A stretch of 64,000 nt of DNA. Source: Roseivirga sp. E12 (lineage in GTDB: Bacteria > Bacteroidota > Bacteroidia > Cytophagales > Cyclobacteriaceae). The stretch is from NCBI RefSeq assembly GCF_017592825.1, contig NZ_JAGFMD010000008.1, positions 1 to 64,000 of the forward strand, in the 5' to 3' direction. Positions 3,638-56,390 of this stretch are shown here, in pieces. Position 1 is the first letter of the stretch, and each line of letters starts with the position of its first letter. The notes under the pieces were generated by a model. It was given only the letters and a program-made list of their open reading frames with translations, ran no database searches and had not been told where the DNA came from. A program made the translations under genes and the position numbers.

Positions 3638-4893
3638 TGGATAAAAAAAATAGAGCAAAGTTTAGTGCCGAAAGCCTCGTAGTAGCTGACGGACACGATC
3701 CTATGGGGGTTTTAAACTCGTTGAAAAATCCGATTTTTCAGACCTCCACCTTTATGTTCAATACTGCCGAGGAGGGCAAAGCCTTTTTCGATCAATACAA
3801 AGGAGCGGATACGCTGGAAGAAAGAAACAGTAGCCTGATCTATACTCGGCTAAACCACCCCAACCTCACGGCTGCGGAATTTCGCTTGGCACAGCTCGAT
3901 GGTGCTGAAGATGCAGCCTTCTTTGAAAGCGGCATGGCAGCCATCTCTACCACCATCATGACCTTCTGCAAGGCGGGTGACTTGATCCTGATGTCATCGC
4001 CACTTTATGGTGGTACCGATACCTTTATCAAGCGTACGCTCAATCACTATGATGTGGAGTGGATCGAGTTCGACTCGGAAAGTACGCAAGAAGACATCGA
4101 ACAAAAGGTACTCAAGCACCCTAGAGCTGAGCAGCTCAAAATGATCTATGTGGAAACCCCAGCCAATCCAACATTATCGCTTACTGACATTGGGATGATC
4201 GCTAATCTCCGTGAAGATTTACGAACTAATGGAATAGAAGCTGTTATTGCGATTGACAATACTTATTTAGGACCCATCTTTCAGAAGCCGATCTCTCAAG
4301 GTGCAGACCTAAACCTCTACTCTGCTACCAAATATATTGGTGGCCATAGTGATGTGATTGCAGGTGCTTGCTCGGGCAGAGAAGACCTGATTCAGGCTAT
4401 CAAAGGCCTAAGGACTACGCTTGGCTGTATGGCTTCTCCTTTTACTTCCTGGTTAGTAACCAGAAGCCTTGAGACAGTAGCGCTCCGCATGGAAAAGCAG
4501 GCTTCGAATGCCGAAAAACTTGCCGACTTTTTGAAAGGCCATTCCAAAGTGGAAAAAGTCTACTTCTTAGGACATTTAGAAGAAGGTACTGCACAACATG
4601 CCATCTACCAGAAGCAGCAGAACTCTGCCGGTGCCATGATGGCTTTTGAAGTGACGGGACTAGAAACGGAGGCTTTTAAGTTTTTGAACAGCTTGGAGCT
4701 CGCTAAGCTAGCCGTCTCCCTAGGAAGCACTGAAACTCTGGCTTCTCATCCTTATACCATGAGCAGTTCCAATATGAATGAGGAAGATCGGATTAAGAAC
4801 AACATTACCGAAAGCCTGATTAGAATCTCTGTAGGTATTGAAAATCCTGATGACCTTATTTCGGACTTCGACCAGGCCCTGAATCAAATCTGA
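3637..4893 (+). CDS. Cys/Met metabolism PLP-dependent enzyme (cystathionine gamma-synthase / methionine gamma-lyase family)
   Basis: A 418-residue fold-type I PLP enzyme. SATKYIGGHSDVIAG contains the Schiff-base lysine (Lys232); FESGMAAIS and SSPLYGGTD are the usual phosphate/ring-binding segments, and the C-terminal VSLGSTETLASHP is the family signature loop. Family members carry out beta/gamma elimination or replacement on cysteine, cystathionine, homocysteine or O-acylhomoserine; the substrate cannot be told from sequence alone. Its start overlaps the NfeD stop by one base, and its own stop overlaps the haemoglobin gene start (TGATG), so the three genes form a coupled operon. Confidence 0.88.
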   Translation: MDKKNRAKFSAESLVVADGHDPMGVLNSLKNPIFQTSTFMFNTAEEGKAFFDQYKGADTLEERNSSLIYTRLNHPNLTAAEFRLAQLDGAEDAAFFESGMAAISTTIMTFCKAGDLILMSSPLYGGTDTFIKRTLNHYDVEWIEFDSESTQEDIEQKVLKHPRAEQLKMIYVETPANPTLSLTDIGMIANLREDLRTNGIEAVIAIDNTYLGPIFQKPISQGADLNLYSATKYIGGHSDVIAGACSGREDLIQAIKGLRTTLGCMASPFTSWLVTRSLETVALRMEKQASNAEKLADFLKGHSKVEKVYFLGHLEEGTAQHAIYQKQQNSAGAMMAFEVTGLETEAFKFLNSLELAKLAVSLGSTETLASHPYTMSSSNMNEEDRIKNNITESLIRISVGIENPDDLISDFDQALNQI

Positions 4894-51148: not shown

Positions 51149-51185
51149 CAAATATAATTAACAAACCGTAAGTGGTTTACATTTG
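51149..51185. promoter_or_regulatory. Divergent -7 elements for proline dehydrogenase and DAHP synthase 1
   Basis: TATATTTG on the minus strand (51156-51149) and TACATTTG on the plus strand (51178-51185) both match TAnnTTTG. They lie 22 bp apart; -33 boxes are weak on both sides. The plus-strand box covers the TTG at 51183, which supports ATG 51213 as the DAHP synthase start. Confidence 0.5.
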
Positions 51186-51212
51186 TTACACCAAAGATTA
51201 AGCAAAGAGGAG

Positions 51213-52313
51213 ATGCAAATAACAGCACCAAAGGATTGGATAGAAGAGTATAAGAAACCATTGGTTTTGGCTGGCCCCTGTAGTGTTGAAAGCGAAAAGC
51301 AATTTCGCGCTTCGGTACTCCCGATTGTCGATAATGTAGACATTATCCGTGGTGGCATTTGGAAGCCAAGAACGCGACCTGGCTCTTTTGAAGGTGTTGG
51401 GGAAAAAGGACTTCAATGGGTAAAATCATTGAAGGAAGAAGTCTCCTTTAAGTTCGCTACTGAAGTTGCCACTCCAGAGCACGTAGAGTTAGCCCTTAAG
51501 TATCATGTAGATGTGCTATGGATTGGTGCACGAACTACCGTGAACCCTTTTAATGTAAGCGAACTCGCTTCTTCCCTGAAAGGTGTAGATATTCCCGTCT
51601 TTGTTAAAAATCCGATCCACCCAGAACTTTCCTTATGGAAAGGTGCTTTAGAGCGTTTTTCAAAAGCCGGCATCACTAAGCTGGGTGCTATTCATCGTGG
51701 CTTTCATACTTATGAGAAAAAGAAATACAGAAACGCTCCATTCTGGCAGATACCTCTGGAATTGAAAAGCGAATTCCCTACCCTTCCGCTTATCTGTGAC
51801 CCTAGCCATATTGGAGGTTCTAGCGATTCAGTTGAGCCTTTGGCACAAAGAGCACTTGATCTAGACTATGATGGTGTAATGATTGAGGCACATTGCGACC
51901 CATCAGCAGCACTCAGCGATGCAAAGCAGCAAGTGAGTACGGCTTCATTATTAGAGATTATCAGTAGGCTCAGTCCTAGAGATGCCAGCTTTACAAAAAA
52001 GAGTTATCTCGATCAATTGGAAATTATCCGAGAGCAAATCGATCAAGCAGACAGAGAGCTACTAGAGGCGATCGCTGTCAGAATGAGTCTGGTAGAAAAG
52101 ATTGGTGAATTTAAAAAGGAAAACAACGTTGCTATTTTTCAGATCAGCAGGTGGAAAGAAATATTCAAATCCAGACCTGATTGGGGAAAACAATTGAATC
52201 TTGATGACGATTTTATCGTTGACCTATTAAGATTATTGCATCAGCAGTCAGTGAAAAAGCAAACTGAGGTGTTTAATACGATAGAAGAAGAACAAAACTA
52301 CTCCAATGACTAA
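51213..52313 (+). CDS. Bifunctional DAHP synthase / chorismate mutase, copy 1
   Basis: A 366-residue fusion: a type I-beta DAHP synthase (VLAGPCSVES, WKPRTRPGSF, WIGARTTVNPF, VKNPIHP, ICDPSHIGG) followed from about residue 270 by an AroQ chorismate mutase domain (LEIIREQIDQADRELLEAIAVRM, LVEKIGEFKKE). It feeds erythrose-4-P and phosphoenolpyruvate into the shikimate path and turns chorismate into prephenate; in relatives the mutase domain also lends feedback control. A strong AGGAG lies directly before ATG 51213. Overlaps the next gene by 8 bp. Confidence 0.93.
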   Translation: MQITAPKDWIEEYKKPLVLAGPCSVESEKQFRASVLPIVDNVDIIRGGIWKPRTRPGSFEGVGEKGLQWVKSLKEEVSFKFATEVATPEHVELALKYHVDVLWIGARTTVNPFNVSELASSLKGVDIPVFVKNPIHPELSLWKGALERFSKAGITKLGAIHRGFHTYEKKKYRNAPFWQIPLELKSEFPTLPLICDPSHIGGSSDSVEPLAQRALDLDYDGVMIEAHCDPSAALSDAKQQVSTASLLEIISRLSPRDASFTKKSYLDQLEIIREQIDQADRELLEAIAVRMSLVEKIGEFKKENNVAIFQISRWKEIFKSRPDWGKQLNLDDDFIVDLLRLLHQQSVKKQTEVFNTIEEEQNYSND

Positions 52314-52845
52314 TCTAGGATTACTGGGACCAGAAGACACCTATCATGATATTGCCAGAAAGCGGTATTTACCGAATGTAAACCCCACTTTTTACAAAAA
52401 CTTTGATGAAGTATTTTCAGCCTTAAAGGAAGGCAAGATCAATAAGGCGCTCGTGGCTATTAAGAACAGCACCTCAGGTTTTGTGAGCAACAACTTGGAG
52501 AAAATCAAGAAAGGTGGTTTTAAGATTGTAGAAGAGTTTGACCTACCAATTCACCTTTGTCTTGGTAGTATACATCCCAACTCTCTAAACTCTATAAAGA
52601 AAATCTATTCTCATCCGATGGCGATAAAGGAGACACAGCGTTTCTTTAGAAAGTATAGCCATATCACTTTTATATCAAGTACCAGTACAGCTGGGGCTAT
52701 TGATGAATTGAAGAACAATAGAGACCCGCATGGCGCAGTAATCTCGAGTTTGGAGGCTATTGAGAACAATGCATTACATGTTATTTCTCAGAACATCGAG
52801 GATGAGCCAAACAATTCAACAACTTTCAGTCTGATCGAGAAGTAA
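52306..52845 (+). CDS. Prephenate-dehydratase-like protein without ACT domain
   Basis: A 179-residue protein covering the two PDT lobes (GLLGPEDTYHDIA, VAIKNSTSGFV, FDLPIHLCLGS, IYSHPMAIKETQRFF, STSTAGAIDEL, ISSLEAIENNALHVI). The C-terminal ACT regulatory domain is missing. The signature PIEN is AIKN (Lys53 for Glu) and the active-site TRF is TTF (172-174, Arg replaced by Thr), so activity may be altered. Expected role: prephenate to phenylpyruvate. It overlaps the upstream DAHP synthase gene by 8 bp. Confidence 0.75.
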   Translation: MTNLGLLGPEDTYHDIARKRYLPNVNPTFYKNFDEVFSALKEGKINKALVAIKNSTSGFVSNNLEKIKKGGFKIVEEFDLPIHLCLGSIHPNSLNSIKKIYSHPMAIKETQRFFRKYSHITFISSTSTAGAIDELKNNRDPHGAVISSLEAIENNALHVISQNIEDEPNNSTTFSLIEK

Positions 52846-52880: not shown

Positions 52881-52910
52881 TTTGACTGCTGAATAAGATA
52901 CATATGTTTA
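52881..52910 (+). promoter_or_regulatory. Weak promoter candidate before the aromatic leader
   Basis: TTTG at 52881-52884 and TATGTTTA at 52903-52910 (18-nt gap) resemble the -33/-7 pair. A start here would leave almost no untranslated leader before the GTG at 52915, so transcription entering from the upstream genes may matter more. Confidence 0.3.
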
Positions 52911-52914
52911 ACAC

Positions 52915-52989
52915 GTGAAAAGAACATCAGCAGCTTACTATTACTTTTTTTACTTTTTCAACTGGAACAAAGTGAGCCGCTGCTTGTAA
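52915..52989 (+). CDS. Aromatic leader peptide (attenuation control)
   Basis: A 24-codon frame, GTG to TAA, preceded by an in-frame stop at 52909. It encodes MKRTSAA, then the run YYYFFYFFNW, then NKVSRCL: four Tyr, four Phe and one Trp codons within ten positions (52936-52965). Such a run is typical of leader peptides whose ribosome stalls when the matching charged tRNAs are scarce. It sits 65 bp before the second DAHP synthase/chorismate mutase gene and overlaps RNA segments 1 and 2 of an attenuator. No strong ribosome-binding site is visible, which is usual in this phylum. Confidence 0.88.
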   Translation: MKRTSAAYYYFFYFFNWNKVSRCL

Positions 52990-53025
52990 AGAAATTTAAC
53001 TATCTAAAACATAAGCCCGGTTCAC
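52929..53025 (+). promoter_or_regulatory. Attenuator pause hairpin and antiterminator
   Basis: Segment 1 (52929-52939) pairs with segment 2 (52971-52975 and 52979-52984) through 11 bp with a 3-nt bulge. Segment 2 (52972-52985) can instead pair with segment 3 (53013-53025): GTGAGCCG/GCTT with AAGC/CGGTTCAC, 12 bp including one G-U pair. Segment 3 is also the left arm of the terminator. Stalling in the aromatic codons would cover segment 1, free segment 2 and favour readthrough. Confidence 0.82.
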
Positions 53026-53042
53026 AAGAATCGGGCTTTTTT
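53013..53042 (+). terminator. Attenuator terminator before DAHP synthase 2
   Basis: An 11-bp stem (53013-53023 with 53028-53038: AAGCCCGGTTC / GAATCGGGCTT, one G-U pair) with an ACAA loop leads into six T (53037-53042). It lies 12 bases before the next ATG, so it must be conditional for that gene to be expressed from upstream. Confidence 0.92.
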
Positions 53043-53053
53043 ATTGCAAAAGA

Positions 53054-54133
53054 ATGGAAATTGTAGACATCAAAGACTGGGGACTTGGCTTATCGGAACA
53101 TGTTCTGATTGCCGGACCATGTAGTGCGGAAAGCCCGCAACAGATCGAAAGCATCGCAAAAGGACTTAGGGGCAGTAACATTGAAATATTCAGGGCCGGT
53201 GTATGGAAACCCAGAACAAGACCCGGTTCTTTTGAAGGAGTCGGCTCTGAAGCACTTGGTTGGTTAGACAAAGCCAGAGAAATATTGAATGTCCCTGTGA
53301 CGGTCGAAGTGGCGAACACGGCTCATGTAGAAGCTGCTTTGAAAGCAGGGGTTGATGTACTTTGGATAGGTGCCAGAACTACGGTCAATCCATTCTCGGT
53401 TCAAGAGATTTGCGATGCTCTAAAAGGGACGGATATTCCAGTGATGGTCAAGAACCCGATCAATCCTGATCTGCAATTATGGCTTGGAGCTATTGAGAGA
53501 TTGAACAAGGTTGGAATCAATAAGATCGCAGGCATCCACCGTGGATTCTCGGACCCATACGAAAAACGCTACAGAAACAAGCCTGAATGGAGTATGCCAA
53601 TTCACTTGAAAAGGATGCTCCCCGGGATCTCTGTTATTTGTGATCCTAGTCACATTGCCGGAACAAGAGAAATCATCGCATCCGTAAGCCAAAGAGCTAT
53701 CAACTTCGGTTTGGATGGATTGATGATAGAAACTCATCATGATCCAGATAATGCCTGGAGTGATGCTAAACAGCAAGTCACACCCGATACCTTAAAGATC
53801 ATCTATGAAAACCTCAACTTCAGAGAAACGCTGGACAAGCACCCTGAGGCCATAAGTGAGCTAGATGAATTCAGACAGAAGATTGATCTGGTAGATACCC
53901 AAATCATAGAACTGCTATCCGATCGTTTCCAAATGATCAAGCAGATTGGTGAATATAAACGAGAGCATAATTTGGCCGTTTACCAACCCAATAGATGGCA
54001 TGACGTTATGGAGTCAAGAATCAATTCTGGTGTTAAGAAAAACATGACTGAAAAGTTCATGAAAAGCTTTTTATTTGCCGTACATGAGGAATCTGTTAAA
54101 ATGCAGGAAGCCCAGCTGAAAGAAAAGGTATAA
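53054..54133 (+). CDS. Bifunctional DAHP synthase / chorismate mutase, copy 2
   Basis: A 359-residue paralogue of the gene at 51213 with the same plan: DAHP synthase (LIAGPCSAES, WKPRTRPGSF, WIGARTTVNPF, VKNPINP, ICDPSHIAG) and an AroQ chorismate mutase domain from about 270 (LDEFRQKIDLVDTQIIELL, MIKQIGEYKRE). Expression is controlled by the aromatic attenuator directly upstream. It is followed by aroB (6-bp gap) and aroA, forming the regulated transcript. Confidence 0.93.
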   Translation: MEIVDIKDWGLGLSEHVLIAGPCSAESPQQIESIAKGLRGSNIEIFRAGVWKPRTRPGSFEGVGSEALGWLDKAREILNVPVTVEVANTAHVEAALKAGVDVLWIGARTTVNPFSVQEICDALKGTDIPVMVKNPINPDLQLWLGAIERLNKVGINKIAGIHRGFSDPYEKRYRNKPEWSMPIHLKRMLPGISVICDPSHIAGTREIIASVSQRAINFGLDGLMIETHHDPDNAWSDAKQQVTPDTLKIIYENLNFRETLDKHPEAISELDEFRQKIDLVDTQIIELLSDRFQMIKQIGEYKREHNLAVYQPNRWHDVMESRINSGVKKNMTEKFMKSFLFAVHEESVKMQEAQLKEKV

Positions 54134-54139
54134 GCCAAG

Positions 54140-55174
54140 ATGAGTCAAATCACTATCGATGATATACAAGTAAGCCTCAAGCAATTCTTTGATACGAGCA
54201 GTCACAGCAAAGTGGCCGTATTGGTTGATGAAAAAACGCGCGAGTTCTGTTACCCAGTTATTCAGGGTTTGCTCCCTGAGCACTTGGTGATAGAAATTAC
54301 TTCTGGTGAAATCAATAAGACGCTTGATACTTGTCAGATCATATGGCAAGCTCTTACAAATGCCAGTTTCGATAGAAAATCTCTTTTAGTCAACTTGGGA
54401 GGCGGTGTTATTGGCGACATGGGAGGCTTTTGTGCGGTTACCTACAAACGTGGCATTGACTTTATCAATATACCAACCACCCTATTGGCAGCTGTAGATG
54501 CTAATGTAGGAGGCAAACTTGGGATTGACTTTCAGGGTTTTAAAAACCATATCGGATTCTTTAAAGATCCCAATGCCGTATTGATAGACCCTATTTTTCT
54601 CGAAACACTCCCAGATAAGGAGTTAAGATCAGGCTTTGCTGAAGTCATTAAGCATGGCTTGATAACCGATAAGGATTATTACGAAAAAGTGGCGAAAGTG
54701 GGTCTCGATCAAGACAATTGGCACGCTGTCATCGCCCATTCGGTGGAGATCAAAAACCAAGTGGTAAAGCAAGACCCAAGAGAAGCTGGCTTGCGAAAGA
54801 TTTTGAACTTTGGACATACCATTGGCCACGCTATTGAAAGCCATTATCTCGATACTGATAATCACCTATTGCATGGTGAAGCTATAGCCATTGGGATGAT
54901 TTGCGAAGCCTATGTGTCCAAAAAGTTATTAAGCCTTCAAGAAATCGACCTCAAAGAAATTTGTGAGACGATTCTAAACATTTACCCTGATATTAACATT
55001 CACAAGAAAGACTTTACGGCCATTATCAAATTGATGTATCAGGACAAAAAGAATGTCAATAATTTTCTTAATCACTCGCTAATCTATGAAATAGGGAGAG
55101 CAGGATACGATGTGGCTGTAGATGAAAAAGATGTGATGGATGCCTTGTTCTTTTATCTAACCCTAAAGCAATAA
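54140..55174 (+). CDS. aroB: 3-dehydroquinate synthase
   Basis: A 344-residue AroB. NAD-binding LGGGVIGDMGGF, PTTLLAAVDANVGGKLGID, GFAEVIKHGLI and the zinc-ligand region NFGHTIGHAIE plus HGEAIAIGM are present. It converts DAHP into 3-dehydroquinate, the step right after the upstream DAHP synthase. Expected to respond to the same attenuator. Confidence 0.95.
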   Translation: MSQITIDDIQVSLKQFFDTSSHSKVAVLVDEKTREFCYPVIQGLLPEHLVIEITSGEINKTLDTCQIIWQALTNASFDRKSLLVNLGGGVIGDMGGFCAVTYKRGIDFINIPTTLLAAVDANVGGKLGIDFQGFKNHIGFFKDPNAVLIDPIFLETLPDKELRSGFAEVIKHGLITDKDYYEKVAKVGLDQDNWHAVIAHSVEIKNQVVKQDPREAGLRKILNFGHTIGHAIESHYLDTDNHLLHGEAIAIGMICEAYVSKKLLSLQEIDLKEICETILNIYPDINIHKKDFTAIIKLMYQDKKNVNNFLNHSLIYEIGRAGYDVAVDEKDVMDALFFYLTLKQ

Positions 55175-55175
55175 A

Positions 55176-56390
55176 TTGGAAAGTATAACGCTGAAATACA
55201 GTCCGGTTATTCAAAGCTCACAGGTTCAACTCGAAGCTTCTAAAAGTGAGAGCAATCGAGCGCTGATCATCAATGCGCTTTCTGGAAATCTGTCAACCCT
55301 CAAAAACCTCTCTAATGCTCGAGATACTCAGACTATGCTCCGCCTTTTGGCGAGTGAAGAAAGTACACTTGACGTTCTAGATGCGGGTACTACTATGCGT
55401 TTTCTAACCGCATATTCCATTCTAGGTGATGAACCTAGAACTTTGACTGGTACAGAGCGGATGCAACAGCGACCAATTAAGATTTTAGCCAAGGCTTTAA
55501 AACAAATTGGTGCTAAAATTAAATTCTTAAAGAAAGATGGGTACCCTCCACTAAAGGTCCATCCCCTATCTTCTCAAAAGAAGGACCTTATCAGTATAAA
55601 AGGTGATGTAAGCAGCCAGTTTATTTCCGCTCTTTTGATGATTGCCCCACGTCTTCCCGATGGATTGACACTGAATCTTCTTGGAAAAATTGGGAGCCGC
55701 CCTTACATCCAAATGACACTTGACATGATGCGTTTATTTGGAATTAGTGCCTCATGGACGAACAATACCATCGAGATTAAACCGCAGGCATATAGCACCT
55801 ATGATTATGTGGTTGAATCAGATTGGTCGGGCGCTAGCTATTGGTACAGCTTTGTGGCTTTGGCTGACCAAGCCAGAATCAAACTTCTTGGTCTAAGACA
55901 AAAATCACTTCAAGGTGACATTGCCATTGTGAGGATAATGAATCAGCTCGGAGTTATGAGCACTTTCGAAGAAGATGGCGTCATTTTGGAGAAGATTCCA
56001 GAGCAAAAATCTGTCGAGATAGATTTCTCCGACTGCCCTGATCTCGCTCAGACGGTAGCCGTTGTTTGTGGTGTCAAAAAGATTGAAAGCCGCTTTACAG
56101 GACTGGAGAGTCTCCGCATCAAAGAAACTGATCGGATCAAAGCCCTAAAAAAGGAGTTAAAGAAGTTTTCCATCAAGCTAAAAGAAGGCGAAGAAGGGGT
56201 TTGGGAAGTGAAGTCCAAGTTCGAACCAGGTCAGGAAGCAGTGAGCATTCATACCTATGAAGATCATCGTATGGCCATGGCTTTTGCTCCACTTTGCACG
56301 CAGCAAGAAATCATTATTGAAGACCCTAGTGTGGTCAATAAGTCATATCCTAGTTTCTGGGATCATGTTTCCGATGCCATAGGGGGCTAA
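55176..56390 (+). CDS. aroA: 3-phosphoshikimate 1-carboxyvinyltransferase (EPSP synthase)
   Basis: A 404-residue EPSP synthase with a TTG start one base after the aroB stop. EASKSESNRALIINAL, DAGTTMRFLTA, GTERMQQRPI, SSQFISALLM, IKETDRIKAL and EDHRMAMAFAPL are the family motifs for shikimate-3-P and phosphoenolpyruvate binding. Last gene of the attenuated shikimate transcript; 94 bp with no gene separate it from the ABC exporter. Confidence 0.94.
   Translation: MESITLKYSPVIQSSQVQLEASKSESNRALIINALSGNLSTLKNLSNARDTQTMLRLLASEESTLDVLDAGTTMRFLTAYSILGDEPRTLTGTERMQQRPIKILAKALKQIGAKIKFLKKDGYPPLKVHPLSSQKKDLISIKGDVSSQFISALLMIAPRLPDGLTLNLLGKIGSRPYIQMTLDMMRLFGISASWTNNTIEIKPQAYSTYDYVVESDWSGASYWYSFVALADQARIKLLGLRQKSLQGDIAIVRIMNQLGVMSTFEEDGVILEKIPEQKSVEIDFSDCPDLAQTVAVVCGVKKIESRFTGLESLRIKETDRIKALKKELKKFSIKLKEGEEGVWEVKSKFEPGQEAVSIHTYEDHRMAMAFAPLCTQQEIIIEDPSVVNKSYPSFWDHVSDAIGG

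Follow-up and report, generated by a model that had tools for sequence, protein, structure and literature searches.

Putative Phe/Tyr leader-peptide attenuator before a DAHP synthase/chorismate mutase-aroB-aroA operon, and related candidate leaders in Bacteroidota

Results

Aromatic genes and leader region of the window

The window, by which we mean the whole 64,000-nt stretch of DNA that was analyzed (G000:C34:1-64000), belongs to a 4.70-Mb genome in 35 contigs and contains two DAHP synthase/chorismate mutase genes, one at 51183-52313 and the other at 53054-54133, which flank a gene for a 179-aa prephenate dehydratase and the leader region described here. Among named records, the closest relatives of the window's DAHP synthase are found in Algoriphagus, Belliella, Marivirga and Cyclobacteriaceae of no named genus. 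The prephenate dehydratase (52306-52845) is the sole PF00800 match in the genome and has no detected ACT domain; this short form also occurs in Marivirga arenosa (L098:3550-4089). The features of the leader and of the genes that follow it are listed below.

52882..52910, + strand: predicted promoter, with TTG at 52882-52884, an 18-nt spacer and -7 box TATGTTTA at 52903-52910 (from spacing conservation)
52915..52989, + strand: leader peptide ORF VKRTSAAYYYFFYFFNWNKVSRCL, 24 codons, GTG start, predicted leaderless
52928..52939, + strand: segment 1, pairing with 52971-52982 (from folding)
52936..52959, + strand: putative regulatory codons 8-15, Tyr Tyr Tyr Phe Phe Tyr Phe Phe (from translation of the ORF)
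52971..52987, + strand: segment 2, partner of segment 1 or segment 3
53011..53025, + strand: segment 3, partner of segment 2 (antiterminator) or segment 4 (terminator)
53028..53042, + strand: segment 4 (53028-53038) and U tract (from folding)
53054..54133, + strand: DAHP synthase/chorismate mutase fusion, the gene predicted to be under control (profile match)
54140..55174, + strand: aroB, 3-dehydroquinate synthase (TIGR01357, above cut-off)
55176..56390, + strand: aroA, EPSP synthase (TIGR01356, above cut-off)

An earlier note on this DNA had described a 24-codon GTG frame with a Tyr/Phe run, and the ORF is present as described, with Trp as codon 17 and a stop codon that begins at nt 73, the 3' edge of segment 2. 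The same note had segment 1 ending where the aromatic codons begin; it instead overlaps the first of these codons by 4 nt. Six-codon F/Y runs are not rare genome-wide (23 matches, versus 34 for the reversed control pattern), and the weight of the case rests on the leader, the helices and their conservation combined, not on the F/Y run alone.

Alternative helices

Folding of the window leader bore out two of the proposed helices. Segment 1 (52928-52939) pairs with 52971-52982, extended by three outer pairs, and segments 3 and 4 form an 11-bp stem (53013-53023/53028-53038) followed by TTTT; the full fold has a z-score of -3.4, and none of 200 shuffles was equally good. When segments 1 and 4 were omitted, the alternative 2:3 pairing formed as claimed, albeit with 14 bp (52972-52979/53018-53025 and 52982-52987/53011-53016) instead of the 12 bp given earlier (z -3.3, 0/200 shuffles equally good).

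The helices were then compared among related leaders, which for that reason are not independent of one another. Shuffle and swap tests of 2:3 and 1:2 used all 50 leaders, including L097 and L099, while alignment A2 comprised 48 sequences, with these two omitted as near-copies of L040 and L031, respectively. The 2:3 duplex ranked among the best 10 of 200 shuffles in 50/50 leaders and among the best 2 in 34/50; 1:2 did so (best 10 of 200) in 17/50 when leaders were taken singly. Swapping partners among 15 diverged leaders weakened both 2:3 (p 5e-5) and 1:2 (0/20000 permutations). On alignment A2, 3:4 was paired in 95.7% of cells with six pairs altered on both sides, a result that no shuffle matched, and 2:3 was paired in 92.3% of cells with four pairs altered on both sides, its covariation score being modestly above control (equalled by 23/500 shuffles). 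Covariation of 1:2 was unsupported on the fixed columns of this alignment, probably because the position of segment 1 shifts between leaders. In 32/48 leaders, translation would run well beyond segment 2, with a stop codon that begins no earlier than nt 90.

Conservation among orthologs

The DAHP synthase protein was searched in 118 genomes of the host family, 104 of them matching at E 1e-60. We take this family to be Cyclobacteriaceae because the closest named relatives belong there, for example Algoriphagus kandeliae (Cyclobacteriaceae, Cytophagales). The ortholog group was defined by a score of at least 489 bits and has 42 members including the window; the 49 controls were L002 and 48 regions (L046-L093) hand-picked from 95 lower-scoring matches. 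An aromatic short ORF with a terminator was found upstream of 42/42 orthologs and in 0/49 regions of lower-scoring copies. Under a stricter criterion of six aromatic residues in nine, 41/42 orthologs remained. The one that misses, L042 (G038), has the run YFFYFLLLL in a frame that passes through the terminator, as would be seen with a frameshift or a draft-genome error. A typical ortholog leader peptide is MLIAALAYFTFFYFYFRPKGRIGAAYCMVKN, and eight named loci (L094-L101) likewise have an aromatic leader.

Codons, start codons and promoters were compared in 48 leaders, again leaving out L097 and L099. All begin with ATG except that of the window, which alone begins with GTG. Joint sensing of Tyr, Phe and perhaps Trp had been proposed for the window leader; the first two fit, as Phe and Tyr both occur in 48/48 leaders, and Trp sensing was rejected since Trp is unconserved (2/48, the window's leader and L101). 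The earlier note had also made its reading depend on whether the aromatic codon run and the alternative pairing are conserved in relatives. This comparison was carried out, both are conserved, and an attenuator before DAHP synthase-aroB-aroA is thereby strongly supported.

A different account of the same anatomy is that the hairpin at 53013-53038 merely terminates the upstream DAHP synthase-dehydratase operon, the aromatic ORF being a product of chance in T-rich DNA. That operon does end at 52845, and, as noted above, the genome has many F/Y runs. This account is nevertheless most improbable in view of the presence of leader and terminator in all orthologs and their absence from all controls, the matching of segments 2 and 3 in the swap test, and the leader's own promoter box in a fixed register (below).

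Predicted promoter and leaderless start

The -7 box of the window agrees with TAnnTTTG at 5/6 positions and lies 4 nt upstream of the leader ORF. In 41/48 leaders, a TAnnTTTG box with at least 5/6 matches is separated from the start codon by exactly 4 nt, compared with 1.3% in shuffled upstream sequence, and the match is a full 6/6 in 34 of the 48 leaders. TTG occurs at a spacer of 18-21 in 45/48 leaders versus 6.9% in shuffles. The promoter box of F. psychrophilum is placed at -12 to -5 (PMC9723704), so that, with the 4-nt spacing, the predicted +1 falls on the leader start codon and the leader mRNA is predicted to be leaderless.

Leaderless mRNAs are rare in this phylum, at 5.5% in F. psychrophilum (PMC9723704), and 5' UTRs shorter than 10 nt make up ~3.7% in B. 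thetaiotaomicron (PMC7366714). Their rarity, along with the lack of an upstream TTG in L005, a leader of the same genus, favors an attenuator with an ordinary 5' untranslated region, for which the TAnnTTTG box would not be the promoter used. The fixed distance of the box from the start codon and the recurrence of TTG at a spacer of 18-21, both far above shuffled levels, make this arrangement unlikely.

Leaders elsewhere in Bacteroidota

A wider set of 72 other loci (L102-L173), nearly all from Bacteroidota according to their record titles and eight of them with no more than 2.5 kb of upstream sequence, was searched for an upstream aromatic leader with a terminator. Such leaders were found on the sense strand at 46/72 loci and on the antisense strand at 6/72; a Planctomycetaceae record and a Halobacteriovorax record are among the loci with no leader match. 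The gene next to the leader encodes prephenate dehydratase at 43/46 loci, an aminotransferase at two and DAHP synthase at one (L107), and the distance from the leader to the DAHP synthase gene downstream is 2.0-3.4 kb in 41/46 loci. The 2:3 duplex was among the best 10 of 200 shuffles in 44/54 leader ORFs of these 46 loci, the 54 including overlapping ORFs of one element (L122, L167).

L107, from a Cytophagales draft outside the ortholog group, is excluded from the ortholog counts and included in the 46 wider-phylum loci. Its leader, MNLSFNAYFSFYYFWYGNRMSRKLIL (4787-4867), stands directly before DAHP synthase, with the aromatic ORF at -214 of that gene, and no promoter was found at leaderless spacing.

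Six loci (L118, L121, L145, L148, L149 and L171) carry two aromatic leaders in series, each with a terminator, ~2.2-3.4 kb upstream of DAHP synthase and before prephenate dehydratase. These double leaders are possible tandem attenuators; in L121, L148 and L149, only one of the pair passes the 2:3 test.

A Tyr/His sister element before phenylalanine hydroxylase

A covariance model built from the leaders (R1) matched a second site of the window's genome, G000:C1:113824-113961 (42 bits, E 2e-4); of R1 matches below ~44 bits, many are confined to the model's second half, which is mostly terminator, and several others are weak but full-length. This sister element directly precedes phenylalanine hydroxylase (PF00351), which is followed by hisH, hisA, hisF and hisIE (NCBIfam, tblastn).

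G000:C1:106500-114400, outside the window: hydroxylase-hisH-hisA-hisF-hisIE behind the Tyr/His leader (L259/L262), with promoter box and terminator

The sister leader, MLKNKAYHYHYYHNKTLRIGRYM, has five Tyr, three His and no Phe, with the run AYHYHYYH, and its -7 box ends 5 nt before the ATG. Its 2:3 duplex is weak, with 34/200 shuffles equally good. Of 12 leaders that precede hydroxylase or TyrA-hydroxylase genes, 8 had a 2:3 duplex ranking among the best 10 of 200 shuffles, and L215, L216, L222 (from the window's own genome) and L232 did not.

His codons occur within the run of the hydroxylase leader in 9/9 his-linked cases (G000, G057, G048, G112, G111, G047, G082, G070 and G078) versus 0/7 unlinked ones (G075, G055, G116, G107, G076, G054 and G115), an association with p 9e-5 by genome and 0.002 by genus, the cases being related. 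Three of the nine his-linked cases are affected by a difference in filter: L233, L241 and L282 were found solely with a Tyr + His filter, and the other hydroxylase leaders with a Phe/Tyr/Trp filter. G054 and G115 were classed as unlinked because no his gene appears before the contig end (~0.4 and 1 kb downstream), and G107 has a hisIE-like match ~5 kb off on the opposite strand. The unlinked leader of G076 mixes Phe and Tyr. No such leader was seen before eight further his-linked hydroxylases (G018, G020, G026, G034, G053, G064, G001 and G102) in scans that did not each cover every region; one scanned stretch of G018 was only 4 nt long, its upstream being covered in two other scans. No terminator was present in the scanned stretch of G020, G026, G034, G064, G001 or G102, and G053 has a hairpin of doubtful origin.

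These codon patterns bear on whether translation matters at all. Segments 2-4 show strong RNA conservation, which would also suit a metabolite- or protein-binding switch that works through the alternative helices with no role for translation, and an Rfam scan is blind to aptamers that have not been described. Such a switch is very improbable, however, as variation falls on the letters in between, sparing the reading frame, the start codon and the Phe/Tyr codons, and the leader codons of sister elements shift with operon content.

Metabolic setting

TyrA was found above the PF02153 cut-off in 40/42 ortholog-bearing genomes and is absent at that cut-off from G000 and G057, both genomes of the window's genus. 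Phenylalanine hydroxylase is present in 39/42, including G000 and G057. With no TyrA and a hydroxylase, the window's genus therefore probably makes Tyr from Phe, a route well matched by two attenuators, one for Phe + Tyr where the pathway begins and one for Tyr(+His) before the hydroxylase. The sole PF02153 match in the window's genome lies below cut-off and was rejected as TyrA; as read from its translation, it is a putative hydroxyisobutyrate-dehydrogenase-like protein.

Discussion

We conclude from sequence comparison that the leader is very probably a ribosome-mediated transcription attenuator sensing Tyr and Phe charging before DAHP synthase/chorismate mutase-aroB-aroA. This reading is preferred because of the difference between orthologs and controls, the alternative pairing, the -7 box in fixed register, and sister elements whose codons track operon products. 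To the observed anatomy, conservation and pairing, the following model adds a start site, stalling, termination and a direction of response that we infer. The transcript is predicted to begin at the leader start codon or in its immediate vicinity and would be translated from its 5' end. A shortage of charged tRNA-Tyr or tRNA-Phe would make the ribosome stall at codons 8-15 over segment 1, allowing 2:3 to form and block the terminator, and DAHP synthase/chorismate mutase, aroB and aroA would be transcribed. When both tRNAs are well charged, the ribosome would reach the stop codon, where in the window it would cover segment 2; in the 32 leaders whose stop lies at nt 90 or later, 1:2 could re-form behind it. 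The differing stop positions thus suggest that, after full translation, either ribosome cover or a re-formed 1:2 may underlie termination, and by either route 3:4 would end transcription, in the window near 53042.

We also consider it reasonably likely that these elements form a Bacteroidota attenuator family with codons tuned to operon products, with leaderless starts in Cyclobacteriaceae and with two attenuators in the window's genus. Leaders would carry Phe and Tyr codons at DAHP synthase and pheA operons, in most cases Tyr by itself before hydroxylase or TyrA, and Tyr with His where the hydroxylase gene has joined hisHAF-hisIE. With leaderless starts, the ribosome would occupy segment 1 as soon as it initiates. 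The two attenuators in the window's genus, where TyrA is lacking, would set the supply of Phe and Tyr and the Phe-to-Tyr step, respectively.

Amino-acid control in Bacteroidota is little described. Judging from the sequence, the speed of leader translation most likely sets whether transcription into the aromatic genes goes on. The leader family offers a testable rule, namely that leader codons predict operon products, and may be a case in which attenuation is driven by leaderless translation. The his-joined operon with His codons in its leader amounts to a natural experiment.

Leader-peptide attenuation itself is a textbook mechanism. The pheA, trp and his leaders of enterobacteria have a short ORF of regulatory codons, helices 1:2, 2:3 and 3:4, and a U-tract terminator before biosynthetic genes. 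The window shares with them the codon-rich ORF, the three helices as predicted by folding and the U-tract terminator, but differs in having Phe and Tyr in one run, a DAHP synthase/chorismate mutase-aroB-aroA target, a predicted leaderless start and another phylum as host. It also has no Rfam match at gathering score, the scan of the locus giving only sub-threshold hits such as Thr_leader (RF00506, 23 bits versus a gathering score of 55) and Trp_leader (RF00513, 18.1 bits versus 41). The ilv and thr leaders carry, in one leader, codons for several amino acids of the controlled pathway. Multi-amino-acid codons are thus shared with the present family, whereas the amino acids differ and the Tyr/His mix spans two separate pathways. 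In the open-access literature, searched by title and start of abstract and with most subscription papers outside it, we found no Phe/Tyr leader in Bacteroidota, no Tyr/His leader, and neither the leaderless start of this leader family nor its operon-matched codon mixes.

Bacteroid-trp RNA (RF01692) occurs in the context of aromatic synthesis. It was described as a Bacteroidetes cis-regulatory RNA candidate (PMC2864571) and in these respects resembles the window element, but at E 0.001 the window's genome yielded no hit to it, and the window locus gave none either. In Sinorhizobium meliloti, the 5' end of the trpL attenuator RNA (rnTrpL) coincides with the ATG of its leader ORF (PMC7298713). 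An RNA start of this kind is predicted for the window leader; rnTrpL differs as a Trp leader of Alphaproteobacteria whose start has been mapped. Small ORFs reminiscent of attenuator leaders are mentioned for B. thetaiotaomicron (PMC7366714). For Flavobacteriaceae, clues to leader-peptide attenuation of amino-acid operons have been presented together with a conserved structured 5' element before pheA, for which the relevant section gives no codons and names no Phe/Tyr mix (PMC9723704). The leaders that we found before pheA in the wider phylum may include this element, whereas that of the window precedes a second DAHP synthase gene and belongs to Cyclobacteriaceae.
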